Shown here: positions 6,819 to 14,025 of the stretch, piece after piece
How the letters are laid out: each line of letters starts with the position of its first letter
Position numbering within the stretch: the stretch's first letter is position 1
Assembly: GCF_000520975.1 (NCBI RefSeq)
Contig: NZ_JACB01000006.1
Location: 1 to 64,000 of the forward strand
DNA: 64,000 nt
Source: Aquimarina megaterium XH134
Lineage (GTDB): Bacteria; Bacteroidota; Bacteroidia; Flavobacteriales; Flavobacteriaceae
Direction of reading: 5' to 3'
The notes under the pieces: model-generated
Database searches by the model: none
Told to the model about the DNA's origin: nothing
The model's input: the letters and a program-made list of their open reading frames with translations, nothing else
Translations under genes and position numbers: made by a program

Positions 6819-7655
6819 CTATAATAACTTTTCCAAAACCTCTTTTGCCTTCTCATAATTATAGTTTTTATCATCTTTGAGAATTAATATTAACTGTTCT
6901 TTTGCTTTTAAAACATCTGATTTTTTAATGTACAACAATGCCTTATACCAATATGCTCTAGAATAATCAACCATTCCGCTTTGCTGCAACTGGTCGAAGT
7001 ACTCTAATGCTTTTTGATAATTTTCTAATTCGAGATGCGAAATCCCTAGATAAGAAAAAACATAAGGATTCATTTCGGTATTACCTTGTCTTTTAGTTTG
7101 TTCTATACTTCTATTAAATGCAGAAATTGCTTCTTCATATTTTTGATCTTCAAATAACAATGTCGCTTTTGCCAGCTCTTGATCGGTATCGCTCTGAACG
7201 ATTAAAGAAGGTAGTTGGTCCCAATCACTATAAACCGAATATAGTTTTTTGAGGTCCTGATTTCCTGTGAATTTCATAATTAAAAAAATCAAGAAAACAG
7301 CTGCAATAGTACTTGCATAATAGATCCACTTTCTGTTATTTGTTTTCGGTTTAGAATACTTTTTATCAAAAAATTGATCTGCAGATTCCTGAATTGTATT
7401 TTTCATCGTCATAAATTCAGAACTTCTACGATACGAACTAATTTTAGAAATGTCTTCTTTTAGAAATGTCTTAGAATTCATTAAAACCCATTCTTCAGCA
7501 TTAATTGATGCTTTAACCGATTTATTAAGTTCAACTTCTTCTTTTAATAGATCATTAGATTGCATCTTTTTTTCAAATAGAAGTTTTTCGTCTTCATTCA
7601 TTGCTCCCTTCACATAAGCATCAATCTGATCATATATTTCTTTATCAAACTTCAT
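6819..7655 (-). CDS. Membrane-anchored TPR protein, putative anti-sigma partner
   Basis: The 278-residue protein begins with a cytoplasmic helical segment (MKFDKEIYDQIDAYVKGAMNEDEKLLFE) typical of Bacteroidota anti-sigma-like proteins. One transmembrane helix follows near residues 109-127 (WIYYASTIAAVFLIFLIMKF), and then a periplasmic domain with tetratricopeptide-like helices (about 155-270). Its start overlaps the end of the upstream ECF sigma gene by 11 bp, so the two are translationally coupled. By analogy it probably tethers or controls that sigma factor. It has no recognisable zinc-finger anti-sigma motif, so the anti-sigma role is inferred from architecture and position. Confidence 0.7.
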   Translation of the reverse strand: MKFDKEIYDQIDAYVKGAMNEDEKLLFEKKMQSNDLLKEEVELNKSVKASINAEEWVLMNSKTFLKEDISKISSYRRSSEFMTMKNTIQESADQFFDKKYSKPKTNNRKWIYYASTIAAVFLIFLIMKFTGNQDLKKLYSVYSDWDQLPSLIVQSDTDQELAKATLLFEDQKYEEAISAFNRSIEQTKRQGNTEMNPYVFSYLGISHLELENYQKALEYFDQLQQSGMVDYSRAYWYKALLYIKKSDVLKAKEQLILILKDDKNYNYEKAKEVLEKLL

Positions 7656-8211
7656 AATAACTCTTAATTACTTTAGTAAATCGCTTATCTGATTTAATCA
7701 TTGCCAGAAGTTTGCTTCTACACTTAAAAACACGTTGTCTGGCAGTATTTACATTAGCATACTCTAATTCTTTTATAATTTCTTCGTACGACATATCATT
7801 AAAAAAAAGAGAAAGAATCTCTTTACAATTTTCAGATAAGGTGTTAAATTTTTCTCTGTATAATTCCATTTGTTCTTGTTCTAACATGAACATTACAGGG
7901 TTCATTTCTTTATCTACTAGTGTATGTACTTGTTGATTCATTACCTGTCTTTTTTGTAATTCTAGTTCTCTTCGCCACATATTCTTACTAATTGTAAATA
8001 AATATGCTTCAAAACAGTCTATCTTTAGCCTTCTCTGTTGTACGCCTACAATAATGTACAATAATGATTCCTGAAAAATATCTTTGGCCTGATCTATTGT
8101 TCCTTTATTTTGATTAACAAATCTCAATGTCTTCGGAAAAAATCGTTCATATATTTCGGATATGATCTTATTATCTTGTTCTAACAAGGCATTAATAAAT
8201 CGTTTACTCAT
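7645..8211 (-). CDS. ECF-type RNA polymerase sigma-70 factor
   Basis: This 188-residue protein has region 2 (QAKDIFQESLLYIIVGVQQRRLKIDCFEAYLFTISKNMWRREL in pieces around residues 45-90) and region 4 with a helix-turn-helix (CKEILSLFFNDMSYEEIIKELEYANVNTARQRVFKCRSKL). The reading frame extends upstream to 8307, but the extra 32 residues are not sigma-like. The Met at 8211 (MSKRFINALLEQDNKIISEIYERF) gives a normal ECF N-terminus, so I choose it. It overlaps the downstream TPR gene and is divergent from the subtilase and CHAT genes, which are plausible targets (inference). Confidence 0.88.
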   Translation of the reverse strand: MSKRFINALLEQDNKIISEIYERFFPKTLRFVNQNKGTIDQAKDIFQESLLYIIVGVQQRRLKIDCFEAYLFTISKNMWRRELELQKRQVMNQQVHTLVDKEMNPVMFMLEQEQMELYREKFNTLSENCKEILSLFFNDMSYEEIIKELEYANVNTARQRVFKCRSKLLAMIKSDKRFTKVIKSYYEV

Positions 8212-8412
8212 CCCATTGATATTTGATAATATAATATTAAACTTACAAAAACTAAAGAATATACACCCGACCTTATCCTCAACACATCCTATATTACTTA
8301 CTCTCAAATAGATATATATTGATAATGACCTGCTAAATAGAGTTCATATAATTTGGGTAATAAATTCTTAATTTACACACTATAGTATATATACTATTAA
8401 AAACCCAATACC

Positions 8413-9669
8413 ATGAAAAGCGCTAAATCATTTTTAAAACTTATAATACTATGTTTCATGATCACAAGTTGCAAGGATGATAATGGAGCTTTTTTATATG
8501 AAGACGCCAGCAAAAATCAAGATGCTATTGATAAAAACAAATCAAATATACATCCTATAAAAATACCTGAACAATTAAAAAATGAACTCATCGTTGAATT
8601 TACCGATACAACGACTGAAGCAGATCAAAATGCTTTAAGACAAAAATATAATGTTATTGACTATAAGGCGTGTAGCTGTAATAATAAACGTGTGCAAAAA
8701 TGGGTATTTGATCAAAATTCTTATACTGAAGGAAGAAAAGATGATATTGCCCAAGAAGGTGGTGTAGAAGGTACCGATTATCAATTTTATTATTATAATG
8801 AAAACATAACTCCTAACCTTATCGCAACAAATCAACCTGTAGGGCTAATAAATTCTTCTATCAGACCTGTTAATGATATAAACCCGGTAACCATAGCCAT
8901 CATAGATACAGGAATTGACTTGAACATGCTACAGAATACACAACCTTTCTTATATAATAATGGATCCCATGGATCTTCATGCAATACCAACTACGAGGTT
9001 TCTGGATGGGATTTTGTTAACCATGATAACAATATGTTTGATGATAATGGTCATGGAACTATTGTAGCTGATATTATTATGAAAAAACTAAAAGATAATA
9101 ATATAAATGATTATCAAATACTTGCTATAAAAGCGTTTGATAAGGATGGCGCAGGAACCACCTTTGATATTCTTTGTAGTTATTTATATGCTGTTAGCAA
9201 ACCCGAAGTCTCTGTTATTAATATGAGTTTTGGCTGGTATCAATACCCAAGTGATCTACTTTCTAAGTTCATTGATGCAAACACAAATATCTTACATCTT
9301 ACTTCTGCTGGCAATAGTGATAATGACAATGACAATTTAGATCATTTTCCATCTTCAATTTATCATAATAATGTATTATCTATAGGAAGTTATCATGAAC
9401 ACAATGATCATTTTAAAAAATCTAACTTCTCTAATTATGGTATACTTAGTGTAGATTTTTTATCAAAAGGCGAAAAGGTGTCTTTCTACAATCATACTGT
9501 AGAAGGAACTTCCTTTGCAACTCCATTTGTAGCAGTAAAAGCTATGAAATATTACATGCAAGGCTATAGAACACCACAACAGATTATTGATCAATTAAGA
9601 ATTAATGCTTATATACTTAATAACGAAAATCTATTATCTGTCTATTTCAAAGACAGAGTAATTAAATAA
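8413..9669 (+). CDS. Subtilisin-family (S8) serine protease lipoprotein
   Basis: The 418-residue protein has a lipoprotein signal with lipobox ITSC (Cys20), so it is probably attached to a membrane. Residues about 50-130 look like an inhibitor or propeptide domain (ELIVEFTDTT...). The protease domain has the full triad: Asp165 in IIDTGID, His214 in NGHGT and Ser367 in GTSFATP. Asn301 in SAGNSD is the oxyanion residue. It is transcribed divergently from the sigma/TPR pair and is followed 134 bp later by the CHAT-protease gene. It could process the CHAT protein or a shared target (inference). Confidence 0.88.
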   Translation: MKSAKSFLKLIILCFMITSCKDDNGAFLYEDASKNQDAIDKNKSNIHPIKIPEQLKNELIVEFTDTTTEADQNALRQKYNVIDYKACSCNNKRVQKWVFDQNSYTEGRKDDIAQEGGVEGTDYQFYYYNENITPNLIATNQPVGLINSSIRPVNDINPVTIAIIDTGIDLNMLQNTQPFLYNNGSHGSSCNTNYEVSGWDFVNHDNNMFDDNGHGTIVADIIMKKLKDNNINDYQILAIKAFDKDGAGTTFDILCSYLYAVSKPEVSVINMSFGWYQYPSDLLSKFIDANTNILHLTSAGNSDNDNDNLDHFPSSIYHNNVLSIGSYHEHNDHFKKSNFSNYGILSVDFLSKGEKVSFYNHTVEGTSFATPFVAVKAMKYYMQGYRTPQQIIDQLRINAYILNNENLLSVYFKDRVIK

Positions 9670-9803
9670 TTTCTATAGGCCATACTTTATCTGTGTATTT
9701 CTTTCGGTAGCGGTTTCAGTGATTCTTATAAAATTACCTGGATAGCTTTTCTATTCTATATTAAAAGTTAACTATTTTTAGTTTTTACTTAACAATTTTA
9801 TTC

Positions 9804-12587
9804 ATGAATAACAACTTATGTTTACGGCCTACGGATTATTTCATTTTTAGCTTTATATGTATGTTGTGTTATTTCGGAAATGCACAAACCTCAAAAACTC
9901 TTGTCGTAGAACATTATGAAAAAATAGAAAAATCTAATCATTCGTATCTATCTAAGATTGAAAGAATTAATCAATTATTAGAATTAGAAAAAATGAGTAT
10001 AGATTCTTTAACATTAAGTGATCTATATCATAGATATAGCAAACTCAATTTTAGGAATAAAGATTACAAACATGCAATTATACATGGTAAAAAAGCTTTG
10101 GAAATCCAAAAAGAATTTACAGATTCTCTCCCGCAATTAATCAATAACACTTATAATAATCTTGCTTACTACTACTGGTATTCTGAAGATAAAACCAATG
10201 CTATCAAAACTTTTAAAACGCTTATCAAACAGCCTTTCAAGGATAAATTTACGATTAGAGCATATGCCATAAATTTAGCTAAACTGCTTATTGAAAGAGG
10301 AGATTATTATACATTATTAGATTATTTGCAAGAAGCAGAACATACCATCATGAAACAAAATAACTCATTGCTCAATAGAGAACTGTATAGCGTATACTTG
10401 AGTTTCTCCAATGTATATTCCAGAACCAACAAAATTGAACATTATTATAAAGCTATTGAATATCTAAAAAAAACTGAAAAAACAATTTCTCATTTACCAG
10501 ATCAAAAATTAATCAAAACAAAAATCATTATCAATAATCGATATGGTAGTATTTATGATGAACTAAAAGAATACAATAAGGCCATAAGTTATTACGGCAA
10601 GGCCTTATCTCTAAGCCTGAAAACCCAAAAAAAAGACTCATTAAATATTGCTAAAATATATAATAATCTGGGATACATTTATATTGGTATAAATAAACCT
10701 GAAATTGCATTTAAGTATTATCAAAACTCATTAATATACAACCCATACCACACTTCGGCATTTGATAACCTGGGAGATTATTACTTGAATCAAGGAAGTT
10801 TCGAGCAAGCATTAATCCATTATCAAAAAGCTATAAGTTTCAATTGTTATGAATATGACAAACTCAATTTTTATGAACTCCCTTCTATAGAAGTTCTTCA
10901 ACAATCTGATAACAAAATAGAATTAGTCAATGATTTAACAGATAAAGCTAAAGCCTGGTTACAATTCTATACTAAAACTAAAAACAAAGAATACTTAGAG
11001 TATGCCCTAACAACAATATTCAGAGCAGATGAATTAATTGACATTATACGGTCTGCAAGCTATGAGCAACAATCCAAATTCTTTTGGCGTAAAAGAGGAG
11101 TGGATCTTTATATGTTAGCTACTTCTATTAGCTATCAACTTAATCAACCAGAAAATGCTTTTTATTTTATAGAAAAAAGTAAATCTTTATCATTATTAGA
11201 AAACCTGACACATGAAGAAGCTAAGAAATTAGGTGGGCTACCAGAAGTATTACAAGAAAAAGAACACGTATTAAAACACGAAATATTACTGGCTAGCCAA
11301 AAAATAATTGATGAAATTTCTTTCACCAAAAAAGACAGGCAATCATTGGTTTTTAAGAAAAAAAGAAATTACGAAGAGTTTCTAAAATCTTTAGAAAAAG
11401 AATACCCTAATTATTATAATTACAAAAAGAAAATCGACTTAGTTTCTTATAAAGAAACACAACAAAAAGTTACTGAAACTAATACTGTAATAATTCAATA
11501 TATTCTTTCTGATGAGGAAGGATATGGTATGTATATCGCTTCTGATACCCCCCATCTGTTTACGATTCCTAATGTTCGAGTTTTACAAAAAGAAATCCTT
11601 GATCTACGTAAACTTCTACAGCGACCTTTATTTTCTATTAAGGACCAAAATTTATATAAAGCACTATCCTTTAGTATTTTTAAAAAATTGTTTCCATTTA
11701 TAGATACCTTAAAATTGTATAAGAAGAATAAAAAAATAATCATTATTCCGGATCATACACTTCAATACCTTCCATTTGAAACCTTAATCACGAATAATGA
11801 CAATACCAATATTGTAGACAACTACTTTATCAACGATTTCGAAATTAGTTATTTATACTCTATATCCTTATCTAAAAGCGCTGAACATATTAATAAATCT
11901 CCTACTCAAAACCTTATTGGTTTTGCTCCTATACATTTTGAGAAACACAAACTTGTTGATTTAAAAAAGAGTGAGGAGAAAATGAAAAAAATCCAGCGTT
12001 TATTTGGAGGAAATATGTTAACAAAAAAAAATGCATCTAAAAGTAATTTCATAAAAGAATCCTCTACTTATAAAACCATCCATCTATCTACCCATGCGAG
12101 TTCTATGGGTAATCAAGATCCATGGATCGCTTTTTATGATGAAAAATTATATCTCAATGAATTATATTTTATTAAAACACAAGCAGAATTAGTCATTCTG
12201 GATGCATGTAAGACTGGCATCGGAGCATTACAACCCGGAGAAGGAACTATGAGTATTACTAGGGGGTTTTTTCATGCAGGGGCCAAAAGTGTTGTTTCTT
12301 CCCTATGGAATACCAATGAAAAATCTAATAATGAAATTATTCTTAATTTCTATAACTATTTAAAAAAAGGAATATCTAAATCATCTGCACTACGCAATGC
12401 TAAACTTGACTACCTAAAAACTCATCAAGGATCTGAGGTTTCTCCCTATTTTTGGGGACCTCTAATAGTCCAGGGCAATATAGATTCAATACAATTATCT
12501 GCTAATTCGCAAACATCTTTGTGGATATACATTCTTCTTTCTGGAGTATTGTTGTTGATCACACTATATCTAAGAAGGAAATTTTAA
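9804..12587 (+). CDS. TPR-CHAT protein: caspase-like cysteine protease with signal and C-terminal membrane anchor
   Basis: The 927-residue protein has an N-terminal signal-like helix (about 12-28) and tetratricopeptide repeats to about residue 470. A coiled or linker region follows (470-560), then a CHAT domain (about 560-895), and one C-terminal membrane helix (906-921, LWIYILLSGVLLLITLYL) with a basic tail. The CHAT catalytic pair is visible: His764 in HLSTHAS and Cys802 in LDACKTG, followed by the conserved GEGTMSITRGFFHAGAKSVV region. CHAT proteases are relatives of caspases and separase, and several act in bacterial cell-death or defence systems. Here the layout suggests an extracytoplasmic, membrane-tethered protease. 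The substrate is unknown. Confidence 0.88.
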   Translation: MNNNLCLRPTDYFIFSFICMLCYFGNAQTSKTLVVEHYEKIEKSNHSYLSKIERINQLLELEKMSIDSLTLSDLYHRYSKLNFRNKDYKHAIIHGKKALEIQKEFTDSLPQLINNTYNNLAYYYWYSEDKTNAIKTFKTLIKQPFKDKFTIRAYAINLAKLLIERGDYYTLLDYLQEAEHTIMKQNNSLLNRELYSVYLSFSNVYSRTNKIEHYYKAIEYLKKTEKTISHLPDQKLIKTKIIINNRYGSIYDELKEYNKAISYYGKALSLSLKTQKKDSLNIAKIYNNLGYIYIGINKPEIAFKYYQNSLIYNPYHTSAFDNLGDYYLNQGSFEQALIHYQKAISFNCYEYDKLNFYELPSIEVLQQSDNKIELVNDLTDKAKAWLQFYTKTKNKEYLEYALTTIFRADELIDIIRSASYEQQSKFFWRKRGVDLYMLATSISYQLNQPENAFYFIEKSKSLSLLENLTHEEAKKLGGLPEVLQEKEHVLKHEILLASQKIIDEISFTKKDRQSLVFKKKRNYEEFLKSLEKEYPNYYNYKKKIDLVSYKETQQKVTETNTVIIQYILSDEEGYGMYIASDTPHLFTIPNVRVLQKEILDLRKLLQRPLFSIKDQNLYKALSFSIFKKLFPFIDTLKLYKKNKKIIIIPDHTLQYLPFETLITNNDNTNIVDNYFINDFEISYLYSISLSKSAEHINKSPTQNLIGFAPIHFEKHKLVDLKKSEEKMKKIQRLFGGNMLTKKNASKSNFIKESSTYKTIHLSTHASSMGNQDPWIAFYDEKLYLNELYFIKTQAELVILDACKTGIGALQPGEGTMSITRGFFHAGAKSVVSSLWNTNEKSNNEIILNFYNYLKKGISKSSALRNAKLDYLKTHQGSEVSPYFWGPLIVQGNIDSIQLSANSQTSLWIYILLSGVLLLITLYLRRKF

Positions 12588-12693: not shown

Positions 12694-14025
12694 CTAAAAT
12701 ATTATTTTCTGTGTCTTTTGATCAACTCCATTTGATATCTTAACAAAATACAACCCTCTTGAATAAGTTGATAAATCCAATTTTGATTGATTTGCTTCTA
12801 AAGTTTTTTCTATAATATATTTTCCGGATATGTCATATACTTGTATTTTTTTAGTTCCCTCTAAGCCTAAAGTATTTATATTAAATACACCCGAGCTACT
12901 AGGGTTAGGGTATATATTCATATCAAATAAATCAGCCTGAGATTTACCCTGCCCTCCCGATAAACTGCTTATGCTACCAATAGGGTTGCAGTTACTATAA
13001 GAAACGTAAACCATACCTGTAGAGACTGGAGCTGACCATGGGTTACACCCGCTACGTCCTTGTAGTTTTATTCTATACTTAACAACTGTACCTGCACTTG
13101 AAGGATTTCCTGAACCAAAATCAGGAGTGATTTCATTCATTTCAAAACCCATCTCTTTCGTTAAAAGACCTGGTTGCGGTCCAAACGAATAGTAGCGCTC
13201 AATAGTCCATTTATATTCTGTTCCCGGCATTGGATTAGAAACCCTAAAAGTGTTAGATTTCCCTGAACAATATTTTACTGGTTTTATAATACCTTTTACT
13301 AAAGGTGTGAATGGTGGAGCTGGGGTAATCACTTTATTATATGTAGGCCCATCTCCACAAATACTATTAACCGGTGTTACAAAAACCTGTATAGGATCTA
13401 TACCAAAATAATTATTTGGTACAGTAACTAAAAATGGTTGTATTCCATTAGATGTTCCTACTATTGGTATTGGTACCCCTCCAAAATGAATTTCCCATTT
13501 ATATGGCTTATCATTTTTAATAGAATGGTGTAATATTGTAAACGCCACATTGTTGCTTTTACAAAAAGATCCTATAGATGTGACTTCAGTAATCGGGGTT
13601 GCTCCACGAATTATTTCAATAGGAAGTGTGGTCCAATATCCTTTGCAATAATTAGCAGGATCATTTTTGACCCCATGAATACTACGCACTCTTATTTGAG
13701 TAACCGCATAGTTATCGAGGTATAAAGTTGCATACGAATATTTATTAGTACCTCTTTTTAAAGGAGTATTATGCTTATCTAATAATTCCCATTCATATTC
13801 TAAAAAATTAGCCCAGTTAGGTCCAGTATGTAGCCATGTAAATGTATATTTATTATTCAAACACAGTAGACCAGGGCCTGATATTTGTGGAATATATGCT
13901 GCACAGTGCATATCCAATCTATTGTCTTCGGCCTCTATTTTTATTAGTGAATCGTTGTTTTTACTCATACCCATAAAGGAAATACAAGCAAACAAAAATG
14001 TAAAAAGTAGTTTATTGGTTTTCAT
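12694..14025 (-). CDS. Secreted beta-sandwich protein with T9SS type A sorting domain
   Basis: The 443-residue protein has a signal peptide (to about residue 22) and several beta-sandwich, PKD/Ig-like segments. Typical strands are GPGLLCLNNKYTFTWL and VKYCSGKSNTFRVSNPMPG. At the C-terminus (about 365-443) is a T9SS type A sorting domain: MNIYPNPSSSGVFNI, KIQVYDISGKYI, LDLSTYSRGLYFVKISNG and the terminal KIIF. It is therefore exported across the outer membrane by the type IX system and cleaved or anchored there. No catalytic motif is visible, and binding or adhesion is a guess. It converges on the CHAT gene. Confidence 0.85.
   Translation of the reverse strand: MKTNKLLFTFLFACISFMGMSKNNDSLIKIEAEDNRLDMHCAAYIPQISGPGLLCLNNKYTFTWLHTGPNWANFLEYEWELLDKHNTPLKRGTNKYSYATLYLDNYAVTQIRVRSIHGVKNDPANYCKGYWTTLPIEIIRGATPITEVTSIGSFCKSNNVAFTILHHSIKNDKPYKWEIHFGGVPIPIVGTSNGIQPFLVTVPNNYFGIDPIQVFVTPVNSICGDGPTYNKVITPAPPFTPLVKGIIKPVKYCSGKSNTFRVSNPMPGTEYKWTIERYYSFGPQPGLLTKEMGFEMNEITPDFGSGNPSSAGTVVKYRIKLQGRSGCNPWSAPVSTGMVYVSYSNCNPIGSISSLSGGQGKSQADLFDMNIYPNPSSSGVFNINTLGLEGTKKIQVYDISGKYIIEKTLEANQSKLDLSTYSRGLYFVKISNGVDQKTQKIIF

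Follow-up and report, generated by a model that had tools for sequence, protein, structure and literature searches.

Release of sigma factors of the RseA/DegS/RseP type involves a periplasmic protease and an anti-sigma factor that spans the membrane once and has a domain in the periplasm. In the CRISPR-associated type III-E system (Craspase), which comprises Csx29, Csx30 and CASP-sigma, the TPR-CHAT protease Csx29 cleaves a sigma inhibitor, as set out in the available part of the source, where RseA and DegS are also mentioned (PMC10028731). In Myxococcus, the available text on the DdvS-DdvA pair gives DdvS as the ECF sigma factor and DdvA as its anti-sigma factor (PMC4374960), and EACC2-caspase neighbourhoods, in which a caspase-fold protease, an ECF sigma factor and a TPR (DUF1822) gene occur together, are outlined in the accessible portion of a further study (PMC8195603). 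Here, we describe a module that looks like a membrane-based cousin of the CRISPR-associated switch, and of which no description was found in paper titles and the openings of abstracts, a search scope that most subscription papers lie outside.

Architecture of the locus

The window, i.e. the whole stretch of 64,000 nt analyzed from Aquimarina megaterium XH134 (contig NZ_JACB01000006.1, positions 1 to 64,000), carries all four genes named by an earlier sequence-only reading, as seen in the ORF list. The minus strand holds the TPR partner gene (6819..7655; 278 aa, a single-pass membrane protein) and the ECF sigma gene (7645..8211; 188 aa from an ATG), which overlap, as that reading had noted, the length being 11 nt; sigma and partner genes overlap in 39 of 67 pairs, with 4 nt as the commonest length. 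The sigma factor reaches 53.7 bits with TIGR02937 (sigma70-ECF), above the curated cut-off of 42.9, and stays below the cut-offs of two Pfam sigma models. An alternative TTG start extends its ORF to position 8307.

The partner has TPR_16 and TPR_2 matches above the Pfam cut-off and a TM segment at residues 111-129 (7269..7325, minus strand), assigned by hydropathy and the positive-inside rule, with six K/R before and two after it. One mid-protein TM was found by hydropathy scan in 41 of 42 partner homologues; 39 of the 41 have a K/R excess on its N-terminal side, and the N-terminus is predicted to lie in the cytoplasm with the TPRs in the periplasm. The predicted features thus include the single TM, the cytoplasmic N-terminus and the coupled gene of a membrane anti-sigma factor. 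The N-termini of five of ten partners tested gave weak NCBIfam anti-sigma matches (E 4e-4 to 0.2, none above cut-off); that of the window partner is not among the five, the full window protein has one such match at E 0.092, and the anti-sigma families of Pfam do not match the partner N-termini. On these weak hits, the partner is a putative anti-sigma factor.

On the plus strand, a candidate ECF-type promoter, GGGTAAT-N17-ACTAT (8355..8383), faces the operon that encodes a subtilase (S8) lipoprotein (8413..9669; 418 aa) and a TPR-CHAT protease (9804..12587; 927 aa). The subtilase has a lipobox with Cys20, an S8 domain (Peptidase_S8, 2.8e-24) and the triad Asp165/His214/Ser367 proposed earlier, which is invariant in all 21 aligned subtilases from this slot of the module. 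Structural models were made of the full-length subtilase and of the CHAT protein. The AlphaFold model of the former (mean pLDDT 80.4) matches unprocessed prosubtilisins from residues 53-56 onward, and this alignment outlines an S8 propeptide-like domain at residues about 53-126 (8569..8790, plus strand), whose Cys87-x-Cys89 pair is likewise invariant (21/21). The KDDN tail after Cys20 resembles surface-export signals and could thereby direct the lipoprotein to a site outside the periplasm.

The TPR-CHAT protein matches the CHAT family (1.5e-44) and TPR families, its CHAT domain (Pfam PF12770) spanning residues 639-891 (11718..12476, plus strand). The His764 and Cys802 that the sequence-only reading had picked out are both invariant in 56 of 56 aligned CHAT proteins, and hence CHAT domain, His and Cys are all present. 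Hydropathy places a C-terminal TM anchor at 12516..12572 (plus strand; tail LRRKF), and a C-terminal TM was found by the same type of scan in 51 of the 56; together with the mid-protein TM of the partners, this upholds the membrane anchoring claimed for both proteins. The CHAT protein is predicted to be secreted and anchored C-terminally in the inner membrane, so that its body and the partner TPRs would share the periplasmic side. A convergent neighbor (12694..14025, minus strand) with a T9SS sorting tail (Por_Secre_tail, 8.7e-16) is a possible associated cargo outside the core set.

Conservation of the gene set

When the subtilase was the only query, 397 genomes of the family yielded 29 loci beyond the window, in which a CHAT-domain gene adjoins the subtilase in 29/29, the sigma gene is present in 28/29 and the TPR partner in 27/29; where sigma or partner is absent, the sequence stops at the end of the segment read for that locus or of the contig. 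Of 20 weaker S8 hits examined as controls across an identical span, CHAT and sigma were absent from all, and a weak partner match was seen in one. Because the loci are related, these counts are not independent. The four-gene unit, whose recurrence elsewhere had been left to be checked, is therefore a conserved module of marine Flavobacteria, and chance neighborhood, in favor of which nothing speaks except the variable gene order, is ruled out by the contrast between the 29 loci, of which all have CHAT and 28 have sigma, and the 20 controls, of which none has either. The order of the genes differs between loci.

Viewed from the CHAT side, sigma and partner both lie within six ORFs for 67 of 95 CHAT ORFs (87 loci), 94 of which are matched by a profile of the CHAT domain alone. 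Sigma, partner or both are out of range for the other 28; some of these sit at contig ends, and others, e.g., L010 and L011 in one genome, seem to be true singletons. The divergence of CHAT and partner is correlated over 37 loci (distance correlation 0.75; 0/999 permutations as high), which may reflect shared history alone.

The subtilase catalytic domain is, judged by the sequences, an optional part of the module. The 27 modules of a sister CHAT clade have only a short lipoprotein in the slot, which lacks this domain, and the propeptide profile finds standalone slot proteins in 13 of 52 cases at E <0.01 in one pass and in 20 of 52 after iteration, where the 52 are every 95-260 aa protein encoded one or two genes upstream of CHAT. 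Some of the 52 are not slot proteins; one in L078 (119 aa), for example, looks LytTR-like by eye. The module suggests that subtilisin propeptides are kept as free-standing lipoproteins beside a protease, where they would act on their own. Phylum-wide, 274 of 395 genomes match the subtilase profile (A7) at E 1e-20; among the matches listed, those with E <1e-70 (window excluded) come from four genomes, all of the same family. The remaining phylum matches that were examined mainly cover the catalytic domain. One distant subtilase-bearing module is found in a Lewinella record (L082).

A candidate promoter motif directed at the protease operon

GGGTAA is a candidate ECF-type motif directed at the protease operon: of 51 divergent intergenic regions, 37 carry it in the orientation facing this operon, with 3.2 expected from shuffles, and one carries it on the opposite strand. 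All 11 operons of loci L126-L135 have it ahead of their first gene, as do all 10 that remain without L132, which repeats L028. The motif is absent from all ten convergent loci (L136-L145) and occurs in two of seven further operons (L026, L027, L030, L054, L082), in one case before the partner gene, hence motif-based control is not universal. In the stretches of L126-L165, GGGTAA precedes 13 of 257 other ORFs, of which six are first genes of a module operon, five are other genes of module loci, one of these being the T9SS-tail gene of L132, and two lie in control loci. The fuller motif GGGTAAY-N16..19-ACYAT has 15 sites genome-wide vs. 19 for a reversed control, and this pattern thus revealed no regulon outside the module.

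Relation to described sigma switches

The model of the CHAT protein (mean pLDDT 90.7) has Csx29 as its best structural match (Foldseek E 3.9e-16; VIA Z 31.9, rmsd 4.3, 469 residues). DdvA also matches, with E 1.1e-11 (Z 23.3, rmsd 11.5, 577 residues; model 101-891 on DdvA 362-991, in a structure titled transmembrane anti-sigma factor), a Z that may largely be due to TPRs, since TPR-only proteins also score high, e.g., 4g2v with Z 24.1. A profile of the CHAT domain finds, among PDB sequences, the TPR-CHAT proteins of Craspase (E 1.7e-4 to 0.006), DdvA (E 0.011) and one further chain (E 4.6).

With Craspase the module shares the TPR-CHAT fold and the ECF sigma factor, and the His and Cys of the window protein align with a His and Cys that we take to be catalytic in the Craspase proteins. 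The available part of the Craspase source has a sigma inhibitor as protease substrate, whereas the module's candidate inhibitor is a TM-TPR protein, the CHAT protein is predicted to be secreted and membrane-anchored, and the module has an S8 or propeptide lipoprotein in addition. No Cas7-11 and CRISPR array accompany the module: besides the 927 aa CHAT protein, positions 1-30000 of the window hold no ORF >852 aa, and positions 1-25000 hold no array-like repeats. Like DdvS-DdvA, the module combines an ECF sigma factor with a transmembrane anti-sigma-like protein, and the C-terminal part of DdvA matches the TPR-CHAT model; in DdvA, however, anti-sigma, TM and TPR-CHAT parts are joined in one protein, whereas the module distributes them over two genes with a lipoprotein gene between. 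The EACC2 neighborhoods likewise join a caspase-fold protease, an ECF sigma factor and a TPR gene, but with a caspase in the place of CHAT and, in the accessible portion of that report, no S8 lipoprotein (PMC8195603); with Pfam at E 0.1, the window proteins match neither a caspase family nor DUF1822. The predicted single-pass anti-sigma-like protein with its periplasmic domain and a periplasmic protease recall RseA/DegS/RseP, except that a caspase-fold TPR-CHAT protein, encoded within the module, takes the place of DegS.

Proposed mechanism and alternatives

Tentatively, and at just short of an even chance, we favor a self-reinforcing membrane ECF sigma switch, in which the periplasmic CHAT protease of the sigma factor's own operon would act on the anti-sigma factor, with the propeptide lipoprotein as sensor or brake. 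The sigma factor would be held by the translationally coupled, single-pass anti-sigma-like protein with its periplasmic TPR domain, and the opposite operon would supply the S8-propeptide lipoprotein, to which a subtilase domain is added in the window's clade, and the TPR-CHAT protease. CHAT would recognize the partner via TPR contacts and make a site-1 cut in its periplasmic part; the sigma factor, then freed, would transcribe the subtilase-CHAT operon. Where present, the subtilase domain may process the lipoprotein, the CHAT protein or co-expressed surface cargo. We infer both the target and the direction of cleavage; as precedents for CHAT acting on the partner to release sigma, the Csx29/Csx30/CASP-sigma set may serve mechanistically and DdvA as a fusion-type case, within what the available parts of their sources describe.

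Rather unlikely, in our view, is a pure output role, in which the TPR anti-sigma factor senses the signal and the sigma factor induces lipoprotein and CHAT as envelope effectors, e.g., for processing of T9SS cargo, with CHAT never touching the anti-sigma factor. The motif facing the protease operon would fit this, as would the T9SS-tail proteins within or beside the module: eight of the ten loci L126-L135 have, between the sigma and subtilase genes, a further gene of 662-969 aa, with Por_Secre_tail in both such genes scanned (L126, L128), the same tail is found on 10 of 94 flanking proteins, and GGGTAA also stands upstream of the L132 T9SS-tail gene (783 aa), downstream of CHAT. The strict pairing of CHAT with sigma and partner, the correlated divergence of CHAT and partner and the DdvA and Csx29 precedents suggest, however, that CHAT contacts the anti-sigma factor. 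A linear cascade, in which the subtilase matures or activates CHAT, which then acts, is improbable: both catalytic centers are invariant in the aligned sets and the subtilase adjoins CHAT in every one of the 29 loci besides the window, but the 27-module sister clade has only the short slot protein, so CHAT needs no subtilase there, and activation of CHAT by the subtilase, as the sequence-only reading had suggested, does not hold as a general mechanism.

CHAT proteases are present in other defense systems, and the earlier reading had raised a defense or cell-death role. We regard an anti-phage or cell-death system with CHAT as effector as very improbable. The number of CHAT matches per genome is very uneven (0 to 15 across 52 genomes of the genus), which would favor this reading, and caspases, ECF sigma factors and TPR proteins are linked in the accessible part of PMC8195603. 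PADLOC, on the other hand, has no match for sigma, partner or CHAT and no system match for the module to a known anti-phage system; the window subtilase has two generic matches (IetS and subtilase, about 25 bits each). Among 94 flanking proteins, taken from 118 selected after 24 were left out (mostly module genes and close duplicates from related loci), 22 families were matched, each in only one or two proteins. Single matches among these include three to components of one system, MADS (mad2, mad3, mad8), counted over the pooled proteins and not assigned to individual ones; ten of the 94 proteins were scanned again, with no match at 1e-5. The check for a defense island thus found no defense context in the module or these flanks, and every part of the module except the sigma factor is predicted to be exported or membrane-bound.

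Implications

Returning to the sigma switch, the module may be a membrane-bound relative, perhaps ancestral, of the type III-E TPR-CHAT/sigma-inhibitor/ECF-sigma cassette, in which a caspase-like periplasmic CHAT protein would be dedicated to the site-1 cleavage of its own anti-sigma factor and be controlled by a subtilisin propeptide turned signaling domain, an extension that we consider doubtful. If true, the proposed mechanism would offer a related case outside CRISPR for investigating how cleavage of a sigma inhibitor by a TPR-CHAT protease arose, and would point to a general envelope-signaling role for caspase-like CHAT proteases outside CRISPR and cell death.

Gene Set and Its Conservation

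The four genes that the sequence-only reading had placed here were confirmed from open reading frames (ORFs) and family matches, namely, on the minus strand, an ECF sigma gene (ATG at 8211 to 7645), which shares 11 nt with the gene of a membrane TPR protein, its anti-sigma-like partner (6819-7655), and, facing them on the plus strand, the genes of a subtilase lipoprotein (8413-9669) and a TPR-CHAT protease (9804-12587). Sigma and partner genes overlap in 39 of 67 pairs, most commonly by 4 nt, as expected for translational coupling. The genome carries nine CHAT genes, six of which, including that of the window, adjoin genes for a sigma factor and a membrane TPR protein, while the other three, two in tandem (L010) and one alone (L011), have no such pair. 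Of the named relatives found, Aquimarina sp. Aq78 comes closest, with 89% identity in the CHAT protein. CHAT copy number in the genus is highly uneven, with matches at E 1e-40 in 44/52 genomes and at most 15 matches per genome.

A genome collection scanned with three CHAT sequences yielded 79 loci, which together with the window and seven stretches carrying its paralogues gave 87 loci with 95 CHAT ORFs; a CHAT-domain-only profile matches 94 of these ORFs, and both sigma and partner lie within six ORFs for 67. Because this survey was CHAT-driven, a subtilase-only search was also run on 397 genomes of the family; 148 had some match at E 1e-3, and 30 loci were returned, one per genome and window included (weakest, 3.6e-24). 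The whole-protein CHAT profile matches the 1.5 kb flanks of all 30, a match that there rests on the TPRs. Wider stretches, read for the 29 non-window loci in two batches (17 + 12), established that the gene set proposed from the window is conserved elsewhere: a CHAT-domain ORF adjoins the subtilase in 29/29, with sigma present in 28/29 and partner in 27/29, the incomplete loci being a 4.2 kb contig (L250) and a fetched stretch that stops at the sigma gene (L133). Three extra copies from these genomes (L127, L129, and L132) each have CHAT, sigma and partner. In 20 lower-scoring subtilase hits, examined across stretches of equal span, there was no CHAT, no sigma and one weak partner match. The two locus sets partly overlap and share several contigs (e.g., L132 = L028, L144 = L026, L145 = L030). 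The catalytic residues are likewise conserved, as Asp165/His214/Ser367 together with Asn301 are invariant in 21/21 aligned subtilases from the position before CHAT, and His764/Cys802 in 56/56 aligned CHAT proteins.

The Protein Encoded Upstream of CHAT

The gene before CHAT, here termed the slot, encodes a full subtilase lipoprotein in many modules and a short protein, usually a lipoprotein, in many others. A profile built on the propeptide regions of 23 subtilases from the slot matches 13/52 short upstream proteins at E <0.01 in a single pass, with 0/495 other small ORFs and 0/1040 shuffled sequences below E 1; upon iteration it matches 20/52, and no control at 0.01. From residue 56 on, the modelled structure of the window subtilase superposes on unprocessed pro-subtilisin E (Z 28.5, rmsd 2.9, 300 residues), which identifies its N-terminal domain as a propeptide. 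A Cys-x-Cys pair in this region (residues 87 and 89 of the protein encoded at 8413-9669) is invariant in 21/21 slot subtilases and is possibly redox- or metal-sensitive. At least two acidic residues occur at +2 to +6 after the lipobox Cys in 12/20 subtilase and 27/42 short slot proteins, counting only proteins where a crude pattern, which misplaces some, located the lipobox; we take these residues to resemble the surface-export signals of Bacteroidota lipoproteins.

In a tree of 56 CHAT proteins, 17 subtilase modules form one clade (SH-aLRT 98) and 27 modules with short slot proteins another (SH-aLRT 92). Two state changes suffice for slot type, assigned by protein length; the subtilase of a distant Lewinella module lies outside, on a long branch. 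The subtilase domain is thus an optional part of the module. Under either loss or gain of the catalytic domain, the short form has been kept through deep divergence; the propeptide-like domain thus seems to be useful by itself, and CHAT in general does not require a subtilase.

A Candidate Promoter

Divergent intergenic regions of roughly 60 bases or more numbered 51, many of them from close relatives so that counts are not independent; 37 of these have GGGTAA on the protease strand, against an expectation of 3.2, and one has it on the opposite strand. Most placed sites (32/38) lie 55-75 nt upstream of the start codon, and a weaker AAC(T/C)AT-type element follows some 17-18 nt downstream; the window has the candidate promoter GGGTAAT-N17-ACTAT at 8355-8383 on the protease-operon strand. 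In loci L126-L135 the motif precedes the first operon gene in 11/11 operons (10/10 excluding L132, which repeats L028), even when that gene precedes the subtilase gene and encodes 130-969 aa. It is missing from all ten convergent loci L136-L145 and is found in 2/7 operons of L026, L027, L030, L054, and L082, one of the two preceding the partner gene. As background, it precedes 13/257 other ORFs, six of these being the same first operon genes and two lying in control loci, and a genome-wide scan gave no excess of sites. We read the placement of the motif, which faces the lipoprotein-CHAT operon, as indicating that in divergent-type modules sigma would drive this operon itself.

Topology and Comparison With Known Systems

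Hydropathy predicts a single mid-protein transmembrane (TM) segment in 41/42 partners, with a K/R excess on its N-terminal side in 39/41, and a C-terminal TM segment in 51/56 CHAT proteins. With a simple hydropathy cut-off, just 18/56 CHAT proteins show an N-terminal signal; that of the window, although it starts with a hydrophobic stretch of the signal-peptide type, is not among them. These TM predictions most likely place the partner TPRs and the TPR-CHAT body facing each other in the periplasm. Across ten partners, the N-termini gave weak NCBIfam anti-sigma matches in five and no Pfam anti-sigma match; we accordingly treat the partner as a putative anti-sigma factor.

The structure model of the window CHAT protein (mean pLDDT 90.7) has its best match in Csx29, from the Cas7-11 complex (Foldseek E 3.9e-16; VIA Z 31.9, rmsd 4.3, 469 residues), followed by separase. 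It is also matched by DdvA, titled a transmembrane anti-sigma factor in the PDB (Foldseek E 1.1e-11; Z 23.3, rmsd 11.5, 577 residues), and pure TPR proteins reach Z 24 against the same model. In a sequence search of the PDB, the CHAT-domain profile matches no chains besides the Craspase TPR-CHAT proteins, DdvA (E 0.011) and a single further chain (E 4.6), and the window His/Cys align with those of Craspase proteins in the five alignments displayed. According to three reports, Csx29 cleaves the sigma-factor inhibitor Csx30 (PMC10028731), the ECF sigma DdvS turns active upon inactivation of the anti-sigma DdvA (PMC4374960), and some caspase neighbourhoods include genes for an ECF sigma and a TPR protein (PMC8195603). 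DdvA as a fused form, Csx29/Csx30 as a CRISPR form and the window module as a split membrane form thus have one theme in common, in which a TPR-CHAT protein works with an inhibitor of an ECF sigma. A search of a paper library turned up no description of the module; its parts all belong to kinds already known, and there is precedent for the theme.

Neighbouring Genes

Small peptides that contain Cys and have a double-glycine leader, frequently LNKxEQKxIxGG-like, cluster near CHAT genes, with 12 within 2 kb (L011, L012, L015, L032, L034, L037, L050, L055, and L056) and five elsewhere, the near bases being 24% of non-CHAT bases, in counts from which three false matches were discarded by eye and whose loci are not independent. 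Within 3 kb they accompany 8/43 short-slot CHAT genes with sigma vs. 0/19 subtilase ones, and none lies near the window module. Near the L036 module, a protein of 679 aa is peptidase/ABC exporter-like by eye, and 94 flanking proteins include VKOR in three cases and thioredoxin in two; genes of this sort could serve in exporting the double-glycine peptides. Downstream of short-slot CHAT genes, at a distance of one to three ORFs, are genes for very long proteins of ~1740-1790 aa, those of L038 and L048 being RHS/YD-like by eye and those of L035, L042, and L043 grouped by length only. Between sigma and subtilase, 8/10 of loci L126-L135 have a gene of 662-969 aa, and the two that were scanned carry a T9SS sorting tail.

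Mechanism and Biological Role

Our best reading, to which we give not quite an even chance, is a self-reinforcing switch, in which the partner would hold sigma, sigma would drive the lipoprotein-CHAT operon, and CHAT would cut the partner and so free more sigma. The main rival, in which CHAT and the lipoprotein are merely outputs of sigma, shares the step suggested by the promoter motif and dispenses with the action of CHAT on the partner; the theme common to DdvA, Csx29/Csx30 and the window module supports that action, although it does not prove it, and we consider the rival rather unlikely. A role for the switch in defence, raised from the sequence by way of CHAT proteases, was not borne out by its context: no defence island was seen, PADLOC gave no match for the sigma, partner and CHAT of the window, and its matches among flanking proteins are thinly scattered, some of them, reported for the flank set as a whole, being to MADS components. 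T9SS tails occur in 10/94 flanking proteins, a crude tail pattern matches 11/277 proteins near the module vs. 4/677 farther away, and one T9SS-tail gene near the module (L132) has its own GGGTAA, which together suggest a link of the module to surface cargo.
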